Shown: piece after piece, positions 26,203 to 34,569 of the stretch
How positions within the stretch are numbered: position 1 is the first letter of the stretch
How the letters are laid out: every line of letters starts with the position of its first letter
Origin: Candidatus Altimarinota bacterium
GTDB lineage: Bacteria; Patescibacteriota; Gracilibacteria; BD1-5; UBA6164
DNA length: 34,569 nt
Direction of reading: 5' to 3'
NCBI GenBank assembly: GCA_028697205.1
Contig: JAQVFO010000010.1
Span: 1 to 34,569, forward strand
The notes under the pieces: model-generated
Told to the model about the DNA's origin: nothing
Seen by the model: only the letters and a program-made list of their open reading frames with translations
Database searches by the model: none
Translations under genes and position numbers: made by a program

Positions 26203-26279
26203 ATGGACCTAGCTTAATTAGAAGAGTGCTCAGATTCCGACCCTGAGAGACGTTGGTGCAATTCCAACGGTCCATGCCA
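26203..26279 (+). tRNA. tRNA with anticodon CCG, probably tRNA-Trp
   Basis: A 77-nt cloverleaf with encoded CCA. The acceptor stem ATGGACC/GGTCCAT is perfect. The first pair A1-U72 and discriminator G73 are the bacterial tryptophan identity elements, and the D-arm (GCTTAATTAGAAGAGT) resembles that of tRNA-Trp. The anticodon stem CTCAG/CTGAG closes a 9-nt loop ATTCCGACC, or a 7-nt loop TTCCGAC if an A-C mismatch adds a sixth pair; CCG is centred either way. The T arm is GTTGG-TGCAATT-CCAAC, with T54 followed by G instead of the usual T55. It should read CGG. Arginine is the formal alternative, but the CGG codons in PheS and the GH-like protein fit Trp. Confidence 0.75.
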
Positions 26280-26323: not shown

Positions 26324-26358
26324 AAAAATCCTCTAAAATAGACATTTAGAGGATTTTT
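26324..26358. terminator. terminator between the tRNA and the zinc deacylase
   Basis: AAAAATCCTCTAAA (26324-26337) and TTTAGAGGATTTTT (26345-26358) form a 14-bp perfect stem with a T run, about 45 nt after the tRNA and 28 nt beyond the convergent operon's last stop, so it may serve both. Confidence 0.88.
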
Positions 26359-26386: not shown

Positions 26387-27157
26387 TTACAATACTCTTT
26401 CAACTCTATGACATAAAACATTTTCATCCTCTAAATTAACCCAAAGTAGGTATGTATCATTATTTGCTAATATAGGAGTTCAATTATTGTCATATCAAAT
26501 AACTTCTCATTTTCTTACAAAAGAAAAATCTGCTAAACCTTTTTCTAAACTAGAAATATCTCTCTTTAATACTTCTCCACTCCACGTATAAACTTCTTTA
26601 TTTAACCTTGTTCATCTATTTAAATTTCTCATAATATCAAGAATAGATTCTGTAACTATATCAATATTTAAAGGATTATTATTATTTCATATCTCAATAG
26701 CAATTGCATTTCTATATCTTGATATTAAAGCTCATTCTAATCAATCAATTAAATAAACTCTATTAATTAAAGAAGTGCCATTTACTGTTGGTAAATTTAG
26801 TTTTTGATGTGAATCTATTATAAAATATCATGGAACTGTAAAAGATGTAGAATGTAAATCAATTATATGTGAAAACCTACTTAAAAAAGCATCTAACTCT
26901 CATGCTAATTTATTTTCTAAAAGTCAACTATTATGTCAAATAGATTCTGTAGTAAAAGATCTATTTAAATCAGTATCAATATATCTGACTCATTTTTCTT
27001 GAGCCATTTTGTTTGCAATAACATAGGTAACATTTTTTACCATTTTTTCTTTCAATCTATTAATAACTTTTAGTCATAAAGTTTCATCTCAATGAGTACA
27101 TCATATAATAGCTAAATTATATGGATTGTCTCAATATTGTTCAAATGTAAAACTCAT
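26387..27157 (-). CDS. AstE/AspA-type zinc deacylase (M14-like)
   Basis: A 256-residue protein of the succinylglutamate desuccinylase/aspartoacylase family. Zinc ligands are visible: His22 and Glu25 in IIGCTHGDETLG, and His102 in IIDLHSTSF. Between them lies the family signature RYIDTDLNRSF (residues 58-68), whose Asn-Arg binds the substrate carboxylate. These enzymes cut an amide bond next to an acidic or amino acid group. It is the last gene of the minus-strand cluster, 4 nt after a radical SAM gene, so it is probably cotranscribed. It could trim or deacylate a modified peptide or small molecule; the true substrate cannot be read from the sequence. A terminator lies beyond. Confidence 0.82.
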
Positions 27158-27161
27158 AAAA

Positions 27162-28190
27162 TTAATTATAATTAAAAATCTTAGGTTTATTTGATAATTT
27201 GTTTTCTAAAAATAATCCATAAAAATGCCGATTATCAAAGCATTTGTTACATGCATTTTTTGATTCTTTAAAAAATTTATCAAGAAATATGCTATTAGCT
27301 CTCTCTATTATTAATTCTTCTTCATAAGGATCTTCTAAATTCATTTGTCATAATACTTTATGTCATCTACTACCACATCAATATAATAAAAATTTTCAGT
27401 GAGTCCATAAAGTATTTCCTAAATATTTTATATGCAAAGCCCATTTATGCATTTTACAACTTCATAATATTTCTCATCTATAATACTTAATTAATTCATA
27501 AAAGTATTCCTTATAATTACTTAATAGCTTGTATTTGTCTATACTGTCTTCTAAATCTATTAAGAATTTTTTAATAACATCCGCATCTAATCTGAATCCC
27601 TCCTTATTTAAATAATTTACTAATTCAAAAGGAATACACCATAATCTTTTTTCATCTATTTCTTTTTTATATTTACTTTCTAAAAATTTTATTAACTCTA
27701 AATAATTAGGAATACTCTTAGGATGTAATACAGTCAATAACTCAACGCAAAATCAATTACTAAGTAAAGTATCTATGTTTCATAAAATATTATCTAAATT
27801 CTGTTTATTTTTAAACCTAAAAATATTATCTTCTAAATTAATTCAATCTAAAGATATAGCAAAAAATATCTTATTAGGATTATATTTATTTAAATCTAAT
27901 TGTTTATGTAATATGGTTCCATTAGTTGATACTCTAATAACTTTATTATCAAATTTAGTATATACTTCTTCTATAATTTCAGGAAATAAAGTAGGTTCTC
28001 ATCATGTTAATGATATAACTTTTAATTCAGGAATTTTACTATCAATAAAATTCTTTAAATTATATATGTTTTTTTTGAAATTACTAACCTCTTTATCAGT
28101 AAACTTTCTATCAAACTTTTTAGTATACATACAATAATCACAATTTAAAGTACAATATACTTCTCAAAAAACAAAATTTAGTAAAAACAT
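27162..28190 (-). CDS. radical SAM protein with C-terminal Cys cluster
   Basis: A 342-residue radical SAM enzyme. The cluster motif CTLNCDYC comes at once (Cys13, Cys17, Cys20), followed by the SAM-binding SLTGGEPTLFPEI near residue 62. After the barrel there are further cysteines: GSCKMHKW near 262, LLYGCGSRG near 285 and NACNKCFDN near 313-322, a partial SPASM or twitch-like auxiliary cluster region. Codon 321 is CGG (27228-27230) in FDN-CGG-HFYG, and Trp fits well after the Cys-x-x-Cys pair. No N-terminal PqqD-like domain. It lies 19 nt after the third radical SAM gene and 4 nt before the deacylase, deep in the operon. Probably a peptide- or cofactor-modifying enzyme. Confidence 0.85.
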
Positions 28191-28209
28191 AATTATTATT
28201 GATTACAAA

Positions 28210-29238
28210 TTATTTAATCCAACATTGTGAGTCTATTTTGTTAAAATTCTTATACAACCCATAATTTACTGCAGGACATCACCTACAAACATTTTTTAAT
28301 TTACATTTTAAACATCACTTTATCAAATTTCATTTATGTATTTTATCTATATATAGACTATTTTCATAAATATCTATCAAACTATTTTCTGTTATATTTC
28401 AAATTTTTATAGGTAACTTCCTACAAAGTAGTACATCTCAATTTTCTATCACTGTTAGGTGTCTATATCACATTCAGCAACCATAAACTTTATCATCTAA
28501 GTCAATGTTTAATTTATTATTTTCATAATATAAAAGTTTCCATAAATGATCTTTCTTTCAAATTTGTAGTTTACATTTTTCTGATTTTAACTTTTCCTCT
28601 ACTTTTAATATTTTTAATAATAAATCTTTAAATTCACTATTGGTAACCATTATATTTTTAGATGCTTTTCACATAGGAACAACTCTAACAAAGTCAAATC
28701 TAGATAACTTAGTATTTCTAGCTAGATATTCAATTAATGGAATAACCTCATTAATATTCCACTTTGAAACAGTCATATTTACCAATGATTGTATATTGTT
28801 ATTTTCTAGCTTTTCTATAGCCTTAACAACTTCTTTAAAAGTTCATTTTCATCTAATTTCCTCATGTTTATTTTCAAGTCATTCAATACTTAATTGATAA
28901 AAATTAATTCATTTTTCTTTTAACCAAGCAATATTTTTATCTGTAAGTAAATGGTAATTTCAAAAAAGAGAAACCTTTAATCAATTTTTCAACGAATACT
29001 CTACTATATCTTTAAACTTTGGATATAACCAGGGATCTCATCAAGTAAAATAAACTTTTCATTCAATATTATATTTTCTCAAAAAAGATATATAATTATC
29101 AATTCAAGATGAAATACTATTAAAATCTAATGCTACAGGTTTTGAAAAATCTACATAACAATGTTTGCATCTTAACTGACATGCATTTGTAATATGCCAT
29201 TGCAATGTAAAAAGTTTAAATGGTTTTTTTTCTTGCAT
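28210..29238 (-). CDS. radical SAM/SPASM maturase
   Basis: A 342-residue enzyme. The radical SAM motif is CQLRCKHCY (Cys20, Cys24, Cys27), with the SAM-binding VYFTGGDPWLYP near residue 63 and IEGLENKHEEIRGKG near 119-133. The SPASM domain is well formed: YGCGMGYRHL and VLLCRKLPIKIGNI near residues 245-275, then CLKCKLKNVCRGCPA near 311-325, ending SQCWIK, so two auxiliary Fe-S clusters can be expected. It has no PqqD-like N-terminus. Its start overlaps the methyltransferase gene end by 23 bp, so translation is probably coupled. Families of this shape form C-C, C-S or C-N links in ribosomal peptides. Confidence 0.9.
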
Positions 29239-29947
29239 TTGTTAAATATTTATGGCGAGTTAAAAAAAATGATTTATTATCTTTAAATAATTTTTCTAGT
29301 ACTAAAATATATTTTTCTTTATTTAAATAAAAATCTTCAATTATAGGTGCTATTTCTAACATTTTTACTAATGTATCAATATCTTTATATTCCTCTAAAA
29401 ATGTAAATTCTCATTCATATAAAATATCAAAATTACTATCTATTAGTTTTGTTCTAAATTCATTAATAGACTCATGTGGGGGTAAATTAAATAGTTTTTT
29501 AAGTTCAATAGCATCATATTCTCAGTTTGTAAAATTTATAAAAATTCAATTAGGAATTAAAATTCTTGATATTTCTTTTAAGTTATCTGGAGCTAGTCTT
29601 TTTATTACTAAATCAAATAAATTATCACCATATGGAATATTATTTATATTTCATTTTTTAAATGTAATATTTTTATATTCTTTACAATTTTCTTTTGCTA
29701 TATTTAACATTTCCTCGGAGAAATCCATAGAAATCATATCTTTTCATATATATCAAATTGTTTTAGGAACAATTCATAATCAAGTTCATAATTCAATTAT
29801 AGAATCTGATATTCTTATAAATAAATCAACCATTTTATAAAATGATTGATTTCATTTTACTCAATGTATAATTATTTTATGTCAATTATCATCATAAAAC
29901 TTTTTTCTTTTCTTTGCACTAGTATTATAAAAATCATGTTCTTGCAT
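29216..29947 (-). CDS. class I SAM-dependent methyltransferase
   Basis: A 243-residue methyltransferase of the ubiE/type 11 group. Motif I is IELGTGLGIVPK near residues 51-62, in which every Gly but one is encoded by UGA. The acidic end of strand 2 is MISMDFSEEMLNIA; the DLVIKRLAPDNLKEISRIL segment fills the motif IV-V region, and IPNGIFINFTNGEY the strand-6/7 region. The C-terminal 90 residues are not typical of the family and may form the substrate pocket. Encoded between two radical SAM enzymes in the same operon, it may methylate the peptide, but the target is inferred from context alone. Confidence 0.85.
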
Positions 29948-29957
29948 ATTTTTTTTA

Positions 29958-31211
29958 TTAATTAATATTTTTGAAACAATATTTATCTTCATTATTTAAA
30001 ACTCATTCAATTCAAAAAACTCTTGCTCTACATCATCAACAACTATCTTTAAAATTACATTTTCAACATCATTTAATTTCTCACCTTCTTCTTATCTTAT
30101 TTAAGCTATTACTATTATTCCATATATTTTTAAATGTATCATTATTAATATTTCAAACCTCAAGTTCTGAGAAAAAAGGACAAGGTAAAACTTCTCATAA
30201 TTCTGTTATAGCAGAAGTTGTAAATCAAGCAGGACATCAAATTTTTAGTATATCAGGTTTTTTATCATCTTTTGATACAATATTTTCTCAACTGCTAATT
30301 AAAAACATTGATTCTCATATAACATTCATTTTGCCACTAAATTTTTCTCTTTGTAATTTAAAAATTTTTATATATTTATCTAATATTTTCGAATCATTAT
30401 AATAATTAACTTGTAAATTAGAACCTTGTCCTTGAGGAATCAGTAAATTAGTTTTGTGAGCTGAAGCTCATAGAGTATATGCTAAATCTATTATTTTTTT
30501 ATATTCATCAAAGTCTTGGTTTACTAAAGTAGTTACTAAAGTAAAATTGATTCAATATTTTTTTAAAATATTTAGATTGGTAATCGTTTTAAAAAAACTA
30601 TTTTTAACTCATCTAATTAAATCATGCTTATTATCCAAATAAGAATCTAATGATATATGAACTTGTCTTAATCATAAATCATATAACTTTTTCACATTAT
30701 TATCTGTTAACAAAATTCAATTTGTTGACATTGTCATTTTAAGTCATTTTCAAAAACCATATTCAAATATACTATAAACATCTGGATGCATAAGAGCTTC
30801 TCATCAAGATACATTTATGTTAAATACTTTCATTTCAACTAATTCATCAATTAGTAACTTTACTTTACTTAATGATAAATCTATAACTCATTTATCTTTT
30901 CTATGACAATGTATGCATTTTAAATTACATTTATCAGTTATTTGTAAAGTTACATTTAGAGGTGCCGTTAATTCTCAACTTCAAAATATTTCATTACTAT
31001 TTAAAATATCAATATTATCTAATAAATTTTCACTATTTAAAAATTTAATAAAATTTTCTGTTTCTTTTTTTTCTCTAATTATTCAATTTATTGAGATATT
31101 ATCTGATATATATTTTGGGAAGATTAATAATTTTTTGTTTTCAGGATGTAATAACATAAAACTATTTAATTCATTTCTCCATAAAATGTTATTTTTTAAT
31201 TTATAATACAT
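29958..31211 (-). CDS. radical SAM/SPASM maturase with possible RRE-like N-terminus
   Basis: A 417-residue enzyme. Residues 1-85 form a small domain (NNILWRNELNSFMLLHP, then KYISDNISINGIIREKK and FIKFLNSENLLDN) that could be a diverged PqqD-like peptide-recognition domain. The radical SAM motif is CNLKCIHC (Cys95, Cys99, Cys102), with NVSGGEALMHP near residue 132. The SPASM domain has GCPAGFTTSAI, LPCPFFSELEVGNI and GCGKCNFKDSCGGCRAR before the final Cys, a full set for two auxiliary clusters. It has 14 nt to the gene upstream and 10 nt to the methyltransferase. The closest well-known types are PqqE and mycofactocin or thioether-forming maturases; the reaction is unknown. Confidence 0.88.
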
Positions 31212-31225
31212 TCTACTATGTTAAA

Positions 31226-32533
31226 TTATAAATGAGCAACACACAATGGATCAGATGCATCTAATTTATTATATCTTAAATAAGCAGTAGCTCTGCATCA
31301 TCATCTACAAGTTTCAAGATGTTTACAAGAATTACATTTTCAGTCTATTTTATCTATTTTTCTAATTTCATTCATAATTTTTGAATCTTTCCAAATTTCT
31401 AATAATGGTTTATTAGAAATATTTCAACATACTAAATCTTCATGATTCATATATGAACATGGATAAACATTACCATAAGAATCAATTCAGCAAGTTGATC
31501 TTCATGCTGGACATCAATAATGACATTCTGGCATCCAATCAATATTTTTAATACTTGGATTTAAAACATTTTTATTAACTATAATATTAAATTTTGGATT
31601 TTGATTTTTTTCTTGATATTTAAATATATTTTCATACACAAGTCTTAATTCTTTTAATGTTAATTGGATATCAAGTTTATTGTCACATCCTCTTCAGGTT
31701 TCCATAAGTGGAGAAACTTTATAAAATGATGCTCCTAAATCTTGAGATAAATTAATTATATCTATAATCTCTAAATGGTTAATTTTTGTTAAAACTGTAT
31801 TAATTGATACAACAAAGTCATTTTCAACAAGTTTCCTAATATTTTCTTTTATCAATTCAAAATTAGATCAAGGTCTCATTGTTTCAAAACTAGTTTTAGT
31901 AGCACCATCTAAACTTACCTGAATGAACTTTAATCAACAATGTTTTAGTTTCTTTATATTTAAGTCTGTCAACAATGATCAATTTGTAGTAAGTTCAATT
32001 TTTAATCACTTTAAAGAACAATAATTTATTACCTCAAATATATGTTTATACATAAGAGGTTCTCATCATCATATATTAAAAAATTCAACACCATTGTTTA
32101 CCATCTCATCAACTAATTTCTTTGCAGTATTTAATTCTATTCATTCAAATCATTTAATATTTGATTCTGAATAACAATGTATACACTTAAAATTACATAT
32201 TTGAGTTGATTCCCAATATACAGTTCTAGGAAAACTCATAGCATCTTCGGAAATTATTTCATTTTCAATAATTGACACATTAAATATTTCATAATTATCT
32301 TTAAATACTAAAATTCCCTTTTTAACTAATAAATCTATCAATGTGTCTATCTCTCAATGTTTATACAATGGAAATTTTTCATATAAATCAGAAACTATAT
32401 TTCAATTAATAACTTTTAATAAATCAATATATTTATTTGATACTAAAAATCTTCTTCAATCTAAAGTAAGAATAAGTGTTCAAAAATGTTCTTTTCTAAT
32501 TAATGTATCTTTCGAAAAAAAAACTTTATCCAT
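31226..32533 (-). CDS. radical SAM/SPASM maturase with PqqD-like N-terminal domain
   Basis: A 435-residue enzyme, the best typical PqqE-like member here. Residues 1-85 match the PqqD-like RiPP recognition element: EHFGTLILTLDGRRFLVSNK, then IDLLKVINGNIVSDLYEKF and LIDLLVKKGILVFKD. The radical SAM motif is CNFKCIHC (Cys113, Cys117, Cys120), followed by FNIGGGEPLMYKH and QVSLDGATKTSFETMRPGS. The SPASM domain is complete: ECHYGCPAGRSTCGID, VYPCSYMNHEDLVCGNI and KCNSCKHLETCRGGCRATA, then the last Cys in DPLCVAHL. It overlaps the metalloprotease gene by 8 bp. The domain order says it binds a leader peptide and modifies its core, most likely the product of 33194-33337. Confidence 0.9.
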
Positions 32534-33146
32534 TTTCTTTTAAGTAAGCAATTAAATTTTTTGATATATCAATATTTTTAAATTTATCTGGTAAATTATT
32601 ATCTAAAAAACTAATAAACTCACCTAAATCTAATTTTTTAAATTCTGAATAATATTTATGTGAATATAAAATTGCATCTAAATGAAAACTATCAATATTT
32701 TTGTAATAAATAAAATCAATTGTATCTATTCCATCTAATTCCTCAATAATTTGTTTTTCTATACAAAAACAAATTATTTCTTCTATAAATCTATTTAAAT
32801 TATGTTTTTTCAATAAAAAGTGTGATATTTCATGTCAAATTAGTCATATATAATAGTTATTACAAAAACTTGGTTGTCATAACACAATTACTCAATTAGA
32901 AGTATTAATTGCTCATAAATAAAAATATTCAGGATAAACTTCAATAATAATATTTTCATTAAAATCTCAAAAAAAATTATTTAATTTACTATATAAAAAT
33001 ATTTTTTTATTATTATACTGTTTTATAATTTTGTTTTTAAGGTTATTTGAATCTTTTATTATTACATCAATATCCGTTTTTTTATTAAGTTTATTTTTAA
33101 AGTATGTTAATCACTCTAAACTAGTTTTAATATTAATTTTTAACAT
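32526..33146 (-). CDS. HEISH zinc metalloprotease-like protein
   Basis: A 206-residue soluble protein. The zinc-protease motif HEISH is at residues 105-109 in YYIGLIGHEISHFLLKKH; His105 and His109 would bind zinc, Glu106 would be the base, and a Glu in NRFIEEIICFCIEKQ (122, 123 or 130) could be the third ligand, as in gluzincins. The N-terminal part is a mixed alpha/beta lead-in. No signal peptide, so it would act inside the cell. Position between the peptide gene and the first maturase suggests it removes the leader peptide. Translation overlaps the next gene by 8 bp, while a hairpin separates it from the peptide gene upstream. Proteolytic role is inference. Confidence 0.78.
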
Positions 33147-33166
33147 AAAATTTTTTCTTATATAAC

Positions 33167-33194
33167 AAAAAAGGAAACAATTGTTTCCTTTTTT
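33167..33194 (-). terminator. hairpin terminator after the precursor peptide
   Basis: A 28-nt perfect palindrome, AAAAAAGGAAACAA joined to its complement. On the minus strand it begins in the stop codon of the 47-residue peptide and ends in TTTTTT, so it is a Rho-independent terminator; leaky read-through would express the maturation genes at lower level. Confidence 0.85.
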
Positions 33195-33337
33195 TAGTCT
33201 CAACAACCAGAAAATTGCCAAGACTCAGCTTCATAATAATCTTTTACAACACAATCCACAGCATCAGTAACTTCAGGAGAAAGTTTTGCTTCAGTTCCTT
33301 TAGATGGTAACTCAGCATCACTCATTGTATTTACCAT
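33194..33337 (-). CDS. putative RiPP precursor peptide
   Basis: A 47-residue peptide. The first 27 residues are a polar, Glu/Asp/Lys-rich leader (MVNTMSDAELPSKGTEAKLS, then PEVTDAV). The C-terminal part carries two Cys (29 and 45), paired Tyr (34, 35), Trp40 and Phe42: DCVVKDYYEAESWQFSGCGD at 28-47. Small size, position as first gene of a radical SAM/SPASM operon, a leader/core contrast and the terminator right after it mark a RiPP precursor. Cys29-x3-Asp33 recalls the Cys-to-Asp thioether spacing of freyrasin-type ranthipeptides, but no repeat is present. An internal Met5 is an alternative start. No similarity search was possible. Confidence 0.68.
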
Positions 33338-33393: not shown

Positions 33394-34569
33394 TTATCTT
33401 AATACATACCCTAATTCTTTTTCTAATTCTACTCTAATCTTAAAATATGTCAAATTAATTTCTTCATTGGTTAATGTTCTATCAATTGCTCTAAAAGTTA
33501 TCCTAACTGTTACAGATTTATTTTGAGCTCAAAACTTTTTATCATTTTCATACATATCTAAAATCTTTACTTCTTCAACCAAATCTCATGCAATATCTCT
33601 AATAATTGCAGATAGAGAAAATAAATCAGATTCTGACTCTTTAAGTAATTCTAATTCTCAAGATTTTTTTTCTTCTTCATAATCTCTTACAAAACTATCT
33701 TTTGGTATGATAAAGGAAATATCCTTAAATACTGGAGGAAAGTTACTTACTTCTTTATATGCTTCAAAATTTCCCCACTGACTTGTAATTCTTTTATCAT
33801 TACTCCAAAAAATTCTTATATCTGGTACATTTTTAAAAGCCATTGTTAACCTATCTAATCAAAATCAAAATGCCCATCAATTATATTTAGTTGGATCCAA
33901 TCATAATTTTTCTAAAACTGTAGGATGAACAATTCACGCTCATAACACTTCAAGCCGTGCTCAGTTATACATTACCTCAACTTCCAAACTATCAATTGTA
34001 TAAGGAAAATTATCTACATTAAACCTATACTCCACATTATCTCAAAACAATGCTTTTATTGTATTTGACAAAACTTCTTTCAAAGTATCTTGAGTTATAA
34101 CTTCTTTATTTTTTTCAGTAATTCTTAATCCATCAATCTGGTGAAAACATTCATGGTGAGTCTTATCTAATTCGTCTACACGATAAACTTTCCCCCAAGA
34201 TAAAGCCTTTACTTCTCATTCTTTTAATAACTTATCAAGTCATCATTGTTTTACCAAAAAATGATACCACATAACTGAAGTATGTGGTCTTAGCAACATA
34301 CTATTTCTTTTATCACTAGATTTATTTATAAAGTAACTATCAGTTACTCTACGAGCAACATGGTTCTCAGGAAAATTAAACAAATCAAATGTTTCAAATT
34401 CTCATACAACTTCAGGAACATCAACATGTGAAAATCATTTAAAAAAATTAGACTTTACTATTCTGTCAATTACCATTTGTATAGGATGTCAAGGAATTGA
34501 AGCTAAATTTGGCATTTCATAGACTCTTATGATTCTATTTATGTATGCTATTTGGGAAGCAGATAAATT
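33394..34569 (-). CDS. pheS: phenylalanyl-tRNA synthetase, single-chain-like, 5' end missing
   Basis: The last 391 residues; the start lies beyond the right edge. The catalytic part is PheS-like: HPIQMVIDRIVKSNFF, SMLLRPHTSVMWYHFL, GKVYRVDELDKTHHECFHQI, then the motif-3 region GWAFGFGLDRLTMAFKNVPD and DIRIFW. The remaining 100 residues form an FDX-ACB anticodon-binding domain (FPPVFKDISFIIP, GDLVEEVKILDMYEN, RITFRAIDRTLTNEEI), which in bacteria normally ends PheT, not PheS. This fusion is the layout of the monomeric mitochondrial enzyme. Codon 33955-33957 is CGG where PheRS has the Trp of the WLEVLG motif. It runs into the RiPP-like cluster in the same direction, 56 nt before the peptide. Confidence 0.92.
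33426..33453 (-). promoter_or_regulatory. putative promoter inside the 3' end of pheS
   Basis: On the minus strand TTGACA (33453-33448) and TAGAAT (33431-33426) are 16 bp apart. Transcription would begin near 33419 and give an 80-nt leader for the precursor peptide, letting the cluster be expressed independently of pheS. Confidence 0.5.

Follow-up and report, generated by a model that had tools for sequence, protein, structure and literature searches.

The window analysed here, 34,569 nucleotides long, is an entire contig (JAQVFO010000010.1, our C8) of the Candidatus Altimarinota bacterium genome GCA_028697205.1 (hereafter G000; 1.27 Mb, 19 contigs, 99.1% complete). It carries eight minus-strand genes at 26387-33337, headed by a gene for a 47-residue peptide, which an earlier note had proposed as a pathway for a ribosomally synthesized and post-translationally modified peptide (RiPP) involving four radical S-adenosylmethionine (SAM) enzymes. 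The eight frames lie where the note had placed them and are intact under genetic code table 25, which takes UGA as glycine, as this bacterium does; as it had warned, standard-code gene calling (table 11) breaks all of them. The peptide gene is followed by genes for a HExxH protein, the radical SAM enzymes A1 and A2, a methyltransferase, the radical SAM enzymes B and C, and a deacylase (Table 1). The list of eight had omitted a ligase of the phenylalanyl-tRNA synthetase (PheRS) type directly upstream of the peptide gene, whose end lies 56 nt away. Because the window is the full contig, the DNA upstream of this ligase is not visible.

Table 1. Features of the locus, in window positions.
Feature	Position	Strand	Remarks
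Extra PheRS-type ligase (PheS core + FDX-ACB)	33394..34569	-	Frame open at contig end; PF01409 197 bits, PF03147 70 bits
47-residue precursor peptide	33194..33337	-	Core YYEAESWQFSGCGD encoded at 33197-33238; conserved core, silent changes only
Hairpin behind the peptide gene	33167..33194	-	U-poor sequence containing U runs behind it
HExxH protein, putative leader peptidase	32526..33146	-	HExxH and downstream Glu kept in 3/3 copies
A1, RRE-like N-terminus + radical SAM + SPASM	31226..32533	-	Pfam 89 and 45 bits
A2, radical SAM/SPASM, divergent N-terminal domain	29958..31211	-	Pfam 85.5 and 41.9 bits
Class I SAM-dependent methyltransferase	29216..29992	-	Pfam Methyltransf_11 47 bits, above cut-off; start probably 29947
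B, radical SAM/SPASM	28210..29238	-	Nearest to ACGX-system and SbtM maturases (NCBIfam)
C, radical SAM without Pfam SPASM match	27162..28190	-	Pfam 53.5 bits; 51% identity in G184
AstE/AspA-type deacylase (M14-like)	26387..27157	-	PF24827 49.4 bits, cut-off 25
Terminator-like stem-loop at the operon end	26324..26358		2 such sites in the scanned stretch; shuffles 0.8

The genes are close-packed, as first reported (spacings from a 23-bp overlap to about 19 nt), with one correction: A2 and the methyltransferase overlap by 35 nt when the latter is started at its first ATG and are separated by 10 nt when it starts at 29947. The ATG at 29947 is probably the true start, judging from the alignment with a fused homolog described below. 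The hairpin in the exempted gap after the peptide gene proved real by RNA folding (-15.1 kcal/mol, z -3.43, one of 200 shuffles as good). The hairpin is possibly a leaky terminator, which would yield more peptide than enzymes.

Two further copies of the locus were found. Searching 353 genomes of the class with B gave 11 matches at E≤1e-12 (G000 included), among which G184, a member of the same class and another family, stood out at 53% identity. G184 carries all eight genes in the same order and on the same strand, so that the peptide gene heads a maturation gene set whose order is kept in another family of the class. Its blastp identities to G000 are 70% for the ligase, 46% for the HExxH protein, 55% for A1, 58% for B, 51% for C and 38% for the deacylase, while A2 and the methyltransferase are fused into one protein (52% and 54%). 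The second genome, G154, belongs to the same family as G184 and holds a variant of the cluster on two contigs: the first has the ligase, a 37-residue peptide, a fusion of the HExxH protein with A1, and part of a radical SAM gene; the second has another radical SAM fragment, A2, an ATP-pyrophosphatase-like protein with a single Pfam match, below the cut-off, a glycosyltransferase, the deacylase and a carbamoyltransferase (248 and 116 bits; L089, contig C120, 2000-7442). Both fragments presumably derive from a single gene interrupted where the contigs end; these ends have only 3 bases in common. A C39-type peptidase lies near these variant genes, on the opposite strand. The hairpin has, by eye, no counterpart in the corresponding gap of G154.

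The peptide of G000 reads MVNTMSDAELPSKGTEAKLSPEVTDAVDCVVKDYYEAESWQFSGCGD; that of G184 (51 residues) ends in ...QEIVKDYYEAESXQFSGCGD and that of G154 (37 residues) is MEEKDVQIKDVAEKEVKSNTADEYYEAESXQFSGCGD, X being in both a CGA codon. The last 14 residues, YYEAESWQFSGCGD, are identical at 14 of 14 positions in all three peptides if CGA means Trp, and at 13 of 14 if it means Arg, one residue (W/R) then differing among the cores. X is most likely Trp, as set out below, and all 14 core residues are then invariant. The core DNA differs pairwise by 7, 8 and 5 bases, all silent with CGA as Trp and including UGA for GGA and TCT for AGY. Random draws were fully silent in 0 of 200,000 cases for 7 changes, 0 of 200,000 for 8 and 21 of 200,000 for 5, by a crude simulation with uniform changes in which the three pairs are not independent. 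Ahead of the core, with the G184 peptide counted from its second Met, identities drop to 10/25 (G000-G184), 4/23 (G000-G154) and 9/22 (G184-G154); of 1000 shuffles, 21, 722 and 77, respectively, scored equally well, and some leader likeness is therefore left between G000 and G184. These comparisons indicate strong purifying selection on the core and drift of the stretch that precedes it.

In the sequences searched, the core was not met outside the cluster. Its pattern, with up to three mismatches, occurs in 3 of the 353 class genomes, once in each and always beside cluster genes (reversed controls gave 0), and in one of 272 genomes of the phylum, namely G000 itself; exact matches in viral contigs numbered 0. 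The peptide has no Pfam match at E≤0.01. In all three copies a short precursor gene thus placed next to the maturases is conserved with them. The earlier note had proposed to judge its reading by gene order in relatives and selection on the peptide, and both came out in its favor: G184 shows full synteny, G154 has a variant, and the core differs by silent changes alone.

Full conservation of the core depends on the genetic code. In the cluster genes of G184, 10 of 12 CGA codons stand opposite a Trp of the window, and AGA stands opposite Arg in 40 of 55 cases (counted over the six commonest partners), so that CGA most likely encodes Trp in G184. The two CGG codons of the window's cluster genes (ligase residue 187 and C residue 321) both fall at Trp sites, where the aligned partners are TGG in 7 of 9 cases and CGG in 2 of 9; CGG is probably read as Trp in G000 too. 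A plus-strand tRNA gene at 26203-26279, convergent with the operon end, is named Arg(ccg) by ARAGORN, but its A1-U72 pair and G73 are features that we take to fit tRNA-Trp, and it may be a tRNA-Trp. According to a 2026 paper (PMC13092985), both CGG and CGA stand for Trp in Absconditabacterales, and UGA is a Gly codon in the class JAEDAM01. The placement of the host in Absconditabacterales, suggested at first, found no support: the family of G184, with CGA as Trp, shares only the class with G000.

The enzymes common to the three genomes are 26-55% identical. A1 and A2 are closer between G000 and G184 (55% and 52%) than between G184 and G154 (48% and 44%), although the latter two belong to the same family, whereas the order is reversed for the ligase (70% between G000 and G184, 74% between G184 and G154). 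The maturation genes may therefore have moved between hosts; the three copies suggest that they did so and ended beside the same neighbor.

All four proteins claimed as radical SAM enzymes pass the Pfam Radical_SAM cut-off, and three of them the SPASM one (C does not). As anticipated, they fall outside housekeeping families, none reaching an equivalog cut-off among the best 25 of 36-73 NCBIfam matches per protein. A1 and A2 resemble AhbD (TIGR04545, heme b synthase), NirJ2 and the mycofactocin maturase MftC (TIGR03962): the best full-length scores are 199.3, 183 and 190.4 bits for A1 and 221, 200 and 141.9 bits for A2, respectively. With AhbD as the best match of both and NirJ2 close behind, the enzymes could be thought to serve a heme-like or other small-molecule pathway, the adjoining peptide being unrelated. 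We regard this as very improbable and rejected a heme-type pathway, because the AhbD scores stand far below a cut-off of 500 and because the invariant peptide accompanies the enzymes in all three copies. The solved relatives of A1 are 5v1q and SkfB, across the radical SAM and SPASM part. Close homologs of A1 are few: against 60 relatives the best other genome was G054 (28% identity across most of the length), a wider contig search returned one relative at 29%, and a profile run on 379 genomes of the phylum found nothing above 165 bits apart from A1 of the window.

A1 had been described as a fusion of a PqqD-like domain with radical SAM and SPASM domains, and the latter two were recovered. For the N-terminus, which would correspond to a RiPP recognition element (RRE), a profile of three homologs (95 residues) gave one PDB match at E≤0.01, with E 0.0012, covering residues 24-92 of the radical SAM protein 8VPO (472 residues). 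8VPO is among 19 structures that serve as RRE references in a 2025 paper (PMC12710340); its passages on these references do not locate the RRE within 8VPO, and the match is weak. The criterion of that paper is a strand-then-helix order, and the low-confidence predicted model of the A1 N-terminus, with strands followed by helices, fits this order and lends weak support to an RRE. The N-terminal profiles of A1 and A2 match each other at E 0.0014 with a probability of only 18%, and the A2 N-terminus found nothing better than E 1.6 in the PDB.

B has SkfB as its solved relative and the ACGX (TIGR04340) and SbtM (TIGR04082) maturases as its top two NCBIfam matches (240.4 and 228.3 bits). Seven loci with B or B-like enzymes were compared (window, G184, G179, G095, G029, G020 and G271). 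Short open reading frames (ORFs) whose last 30 residues contain Cys-Gly occur near the enzyme in 6 of the 7, or in 4 of 5 if the window and G184 are excluded; such ends are found in 10 of the 179 short ORFs across the seven loci. B would thus be an enzyme for Cys-Gly ends. At two of these loci, L080 (G029:C18) and L083 (G020:C98), B-like enzymes stand beside longer ORFs with a Gly/Asp-rich, SCG-containing tail, and that of L080 adjoins proteins resembling a His-Xaa-Ser (Hxs) set. At L087 (G179:C7, 5906-8770) the B-like radical SAM gene has no TGA, while other G179 genes need table 25; it may have been acquired recently from an organism with the standard code, and a 54-residue ORF near it ends in LCGPGCKSCNCSCTGGKD.

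C is weakly nearest to MoaA, below the NCBIfam cut-off. The methyltransferase and the AstE/AspA-type deacylase were both borne out by Pfam matches above cut-off. In the deacylase, residues H22, E25, H102 and E155 are kept in all three aligned copies; the true aspartoacylase model NF002601 gives 65.2 bits, below its cut-off of 180, and among 147 relatives 31 had a match, the best other copy being 33% identical. For the HExxH protein, which in G154 is part of a fusion with A1, a match to tetratricopeptide repeat (TPR)-type proteins was discarded: the 13 PDB profile matches are all, by title, designed or consensus TPR-type, at E≥0.029. AlphaFold, run on it alone, gave a predicted local distance difference test score (pLDDT) of 37.

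The ligase adjoins the peptide directly in all three copies, but whether it belongs to the pathway is uncertain. Because a canonical PheS and a PheT B5 domain are present elsewhere in G000, it is an extra enzyme. It shows the single-chain, mitochondrial-type PheRS architecture, a PheS core with a C-terminal FDX-ACB domain above cut-off, and its nearest solved chains are mitochondrial PheRS (TIGR00469 205 bits, below a cut-off of 258). The SrmL model NF051887 scores 224 bits (206 in a six-frame search), below a cut-off of 300 that one of the 353 class genomes, G107, passes. We examined the neighborhoods of 17 ligases in 16 genomes, leaving aside the G107 and partial G172 copies; 14 of the 17 have no adjoining cluster by blastp, several of the 17 lying near contig ends. 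Near two of the non-cluster ligases (G041a, G058) a crude scan for CxxxCxxC detected a single ORF each, and in G163 two deacylase-like genes lie near the ligase (27% and 22% identity). In the ligase tree G184 and G154 group with G149 and G058 (99/99) and G000 stands apart. That the ligase is exclusive to the cluster was rejected on this tree, which does not unite the cluster genomes, and on the 14 neighborhoods. In G002, of the same genus, a single-chain PheRS (L120, C82, 9239-10465) sits among genes that appear, from their translations, to be for chorismate and phenylalanine biosynthesis.

The ligase, the deacylase and the tailoring set of G154 together leave room for another scheme, in which the invariant SGCGD-tailed peptide is a gene-encoded, reusable handle and not the product. 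LysW and pearlin pathways use an invariant tail as such a handle. Here the PheRS-type ligase, directly or via a charged tRNA, would supply an amino acid to the peptide C-terminus, the radical SAM enzymes and methyltransferase, joined in G154 by the glycosyl- and carbamoyltransferases, would modify it, and the AstE/AspA-type enzyme would free the product. Such a carrier would explain a peptide end that is invariant while tailoring sets differ, and it would use two genes present in all three copies, the ligase directly upstream and the deacylase, whose named AstE/AspA relatives release amino acids from acyl groups. It is nevertheless unlikely in our view: most of the ligases examined (14/17) stand without such a cluster, the ligase retains its anticodon-binding domain, and no tRNA-dependent peptide ligase was recognized. 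A special active site in cluster ligases was also rejected, though weakly, several motif stretches being the same in cluster and non-cluster copies (the patterns missed many rows), as was a tRNA as attachment site, since the loci of G184 and G154 contain none. If true, the scheme would amount to a pathway on an amino-acid carrier, assembled from a tRNA synthetase plus four radical SAM enzymes, in a recoded genome of 1.3 Mb.

A further proposal concerns the use of the product and is compatible with a RiPP of constant core: the product could be a weapon or regulator against PheRS, and the extra single-chain PheRS a self-resistant copy. Biosynthetic loci with an adjoining resistant synthetase copy are known, and a second PheRS, besides the canonical PheS and PheT, adjoins the peptide in each copy. 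The same ligase without the cluster in 14 of 17 neighborhoods, once among apparent aromatic amino acid genes, and a tree that leaves the cluster-bearing genomes ununited make a PheRS target quite doubtful.

The reading that we favor, with a probability of roughly three in four, is a RiPP-type pathway with a constant core. We infer all of its catalytic steps, around the observed gene order, fusions, domains and core selection. The RRE-like N-terminus of A1, perhaps also that of A2, would bind the peptide; A1 and A2 would install C-S or C-C bonds in the core, rich in Tyr/Glu/Trp/Phe/Cys/Asp, and B, whose nearest maturases are named for Cys-Gly-type motifs, would act at its GCG end. Further changes would be added by C and the methyltransferase, the HExxH protein would remove the leader, and the AstE/AspA-type enzyme would cut an amide near the C-terminus, possibly freeing the final Asp; removal of the Asp was dropped as a firm claim, for want of support from any residue test. 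Given the invariable core, the product is probably a fixed molecule, cofactor-, metallophore- or signal-like, and not a diversifying antimicrobial. A gene for S-adenosylhomocysteine hydrolase on the same contig (12845-14254, plus strand, 505 bits) would suit heavy SAM use.

Several observations weigh against a RiPP pathway. The usual RiPP logic of a conserved leader and a variable core is inverted in this cluster, and none of the three peptides matched an NCBIfam precursor family at E≤10. Leader binding was claimed from a PqqD-like domain, but Pfam PqqD matched neither the A1 nor the A2 N-terminus nor anything else in G000 (its one match in 60 genomes is in G006), an hhalign comparison of the A1 N-terminal profile with that G006 protein was negative, and AlphaFold, run on A1 with the window's four radical SAM proteins, reached a pLDDT of 52 overall and less in the N-terminus. 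The protease, claimed from its HEISH motif, keeps this HExxH motif in all copies and gains from the G154 fusion, but it matched no Pfam family at E≤0.01, with a weak Peptidase_M48 match at E 0.28. The same core peptide in G154 is accompanied by a different tailoring set, and a search of G154, made for B but not for C or the methyltransferase, found no B at E≤1e-12; four radical SAM enzymes for one peptide hold for G000 and G184. Copies known to us number only three. The remark that no exporter is visible stands for the 20 other window proteins scanned, a subset of the window's ORFs; one EamA-family permease lies about 7 kb from the operon. Within these limits, the interpretation of the earlier note is supported.

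Other gene blocks of G000 and its relatives deserve mention. The whole genome has 26 Radical_SAM matches, and 14 of them, one being HxsB, lie within about 22 kb at 95-117 kb of contig C12 (L031, L032). The same region encodes two proteins of the nitrogenase-component-1 type (116 and 64 bits) and one of the NifH family (289 bits), and forms a large nitrogenase-like/radical SAM block in a genome of 1.3 Mb. The block includes a His-Xaa-Ser system (C12:115129-117903; L032:11130-13904) with HxsB at 510 bits (cut-off 370), HxsD at 55 (cut-off 50) and an HxsA4-like peptide with HGSHGSH repeats at 47.7 bits, below 55. In G006, of the same family, another likely RiPP locus (L084, G006:C25, 945-3504) combines a PqqD-domain protein at 945-1766 (35.5 bits, cut-off 23.4), a radical SAM protein at 1777-2796 and an 89-residue ORF ending in SCCH.

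The core is unchanged across G000 and two other genera, and this constancy suggests a conserved role. The locus is missed when genes are called with the standard code, and the use of CGA and CGG for Trp masks how fully the core is conserved; with one short peptide in hand, what such bacteria make, and for whom, becomes directly testable.

No cut-off of a named RiPP family is met by the cluster, and among the open-licence papers listed in our searches we found none on it, nor on radical SAM RiPPs in this class. The ACGX and SbtM proteins are named as maturases for short peptides, and the window peptide, ending in GCGD, is alike in this respect, but B stays below their cut-offs (400 and 350) and the peptide matches no precursor model. 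A1 and A2 remain below the AhbD cut-off, as reported above, and below that of MftC (265 bits); A1 further differs from AhbD, NirJ2 and MftC by its extra RRE-like N-terminus, and no heme or mycofactocin genes were seen beside it. RiPP clusters of the candidate phyla radiation (CPR) have been published as graspetides (PMC8939145); they are ATP-grasp based and have other precursors, whereas the present cluster is based on radical SAM enzymes. The Hxs system of the same genome is also a radical SAM RiPP-type system, but its peptide, with HGSHGSH repeats, is of a different type and its enzymes differ as well. The pyrroloquinoline quinone (PQQ) and mycofactocin pathways each join a short constant-core peptide with a radical SAM/SPASM maturase and a peptidase. 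The cluster shares this combination, with a putative peptidase, and differs from them by its four radical SAM enzymes, its methyltransferase and deacylase, and an unrelated core sequence. By this analogy, the best reading is that the logic of the cluster is closer to that of PQQ or mycofactocin than to that of an arms-race peptide.

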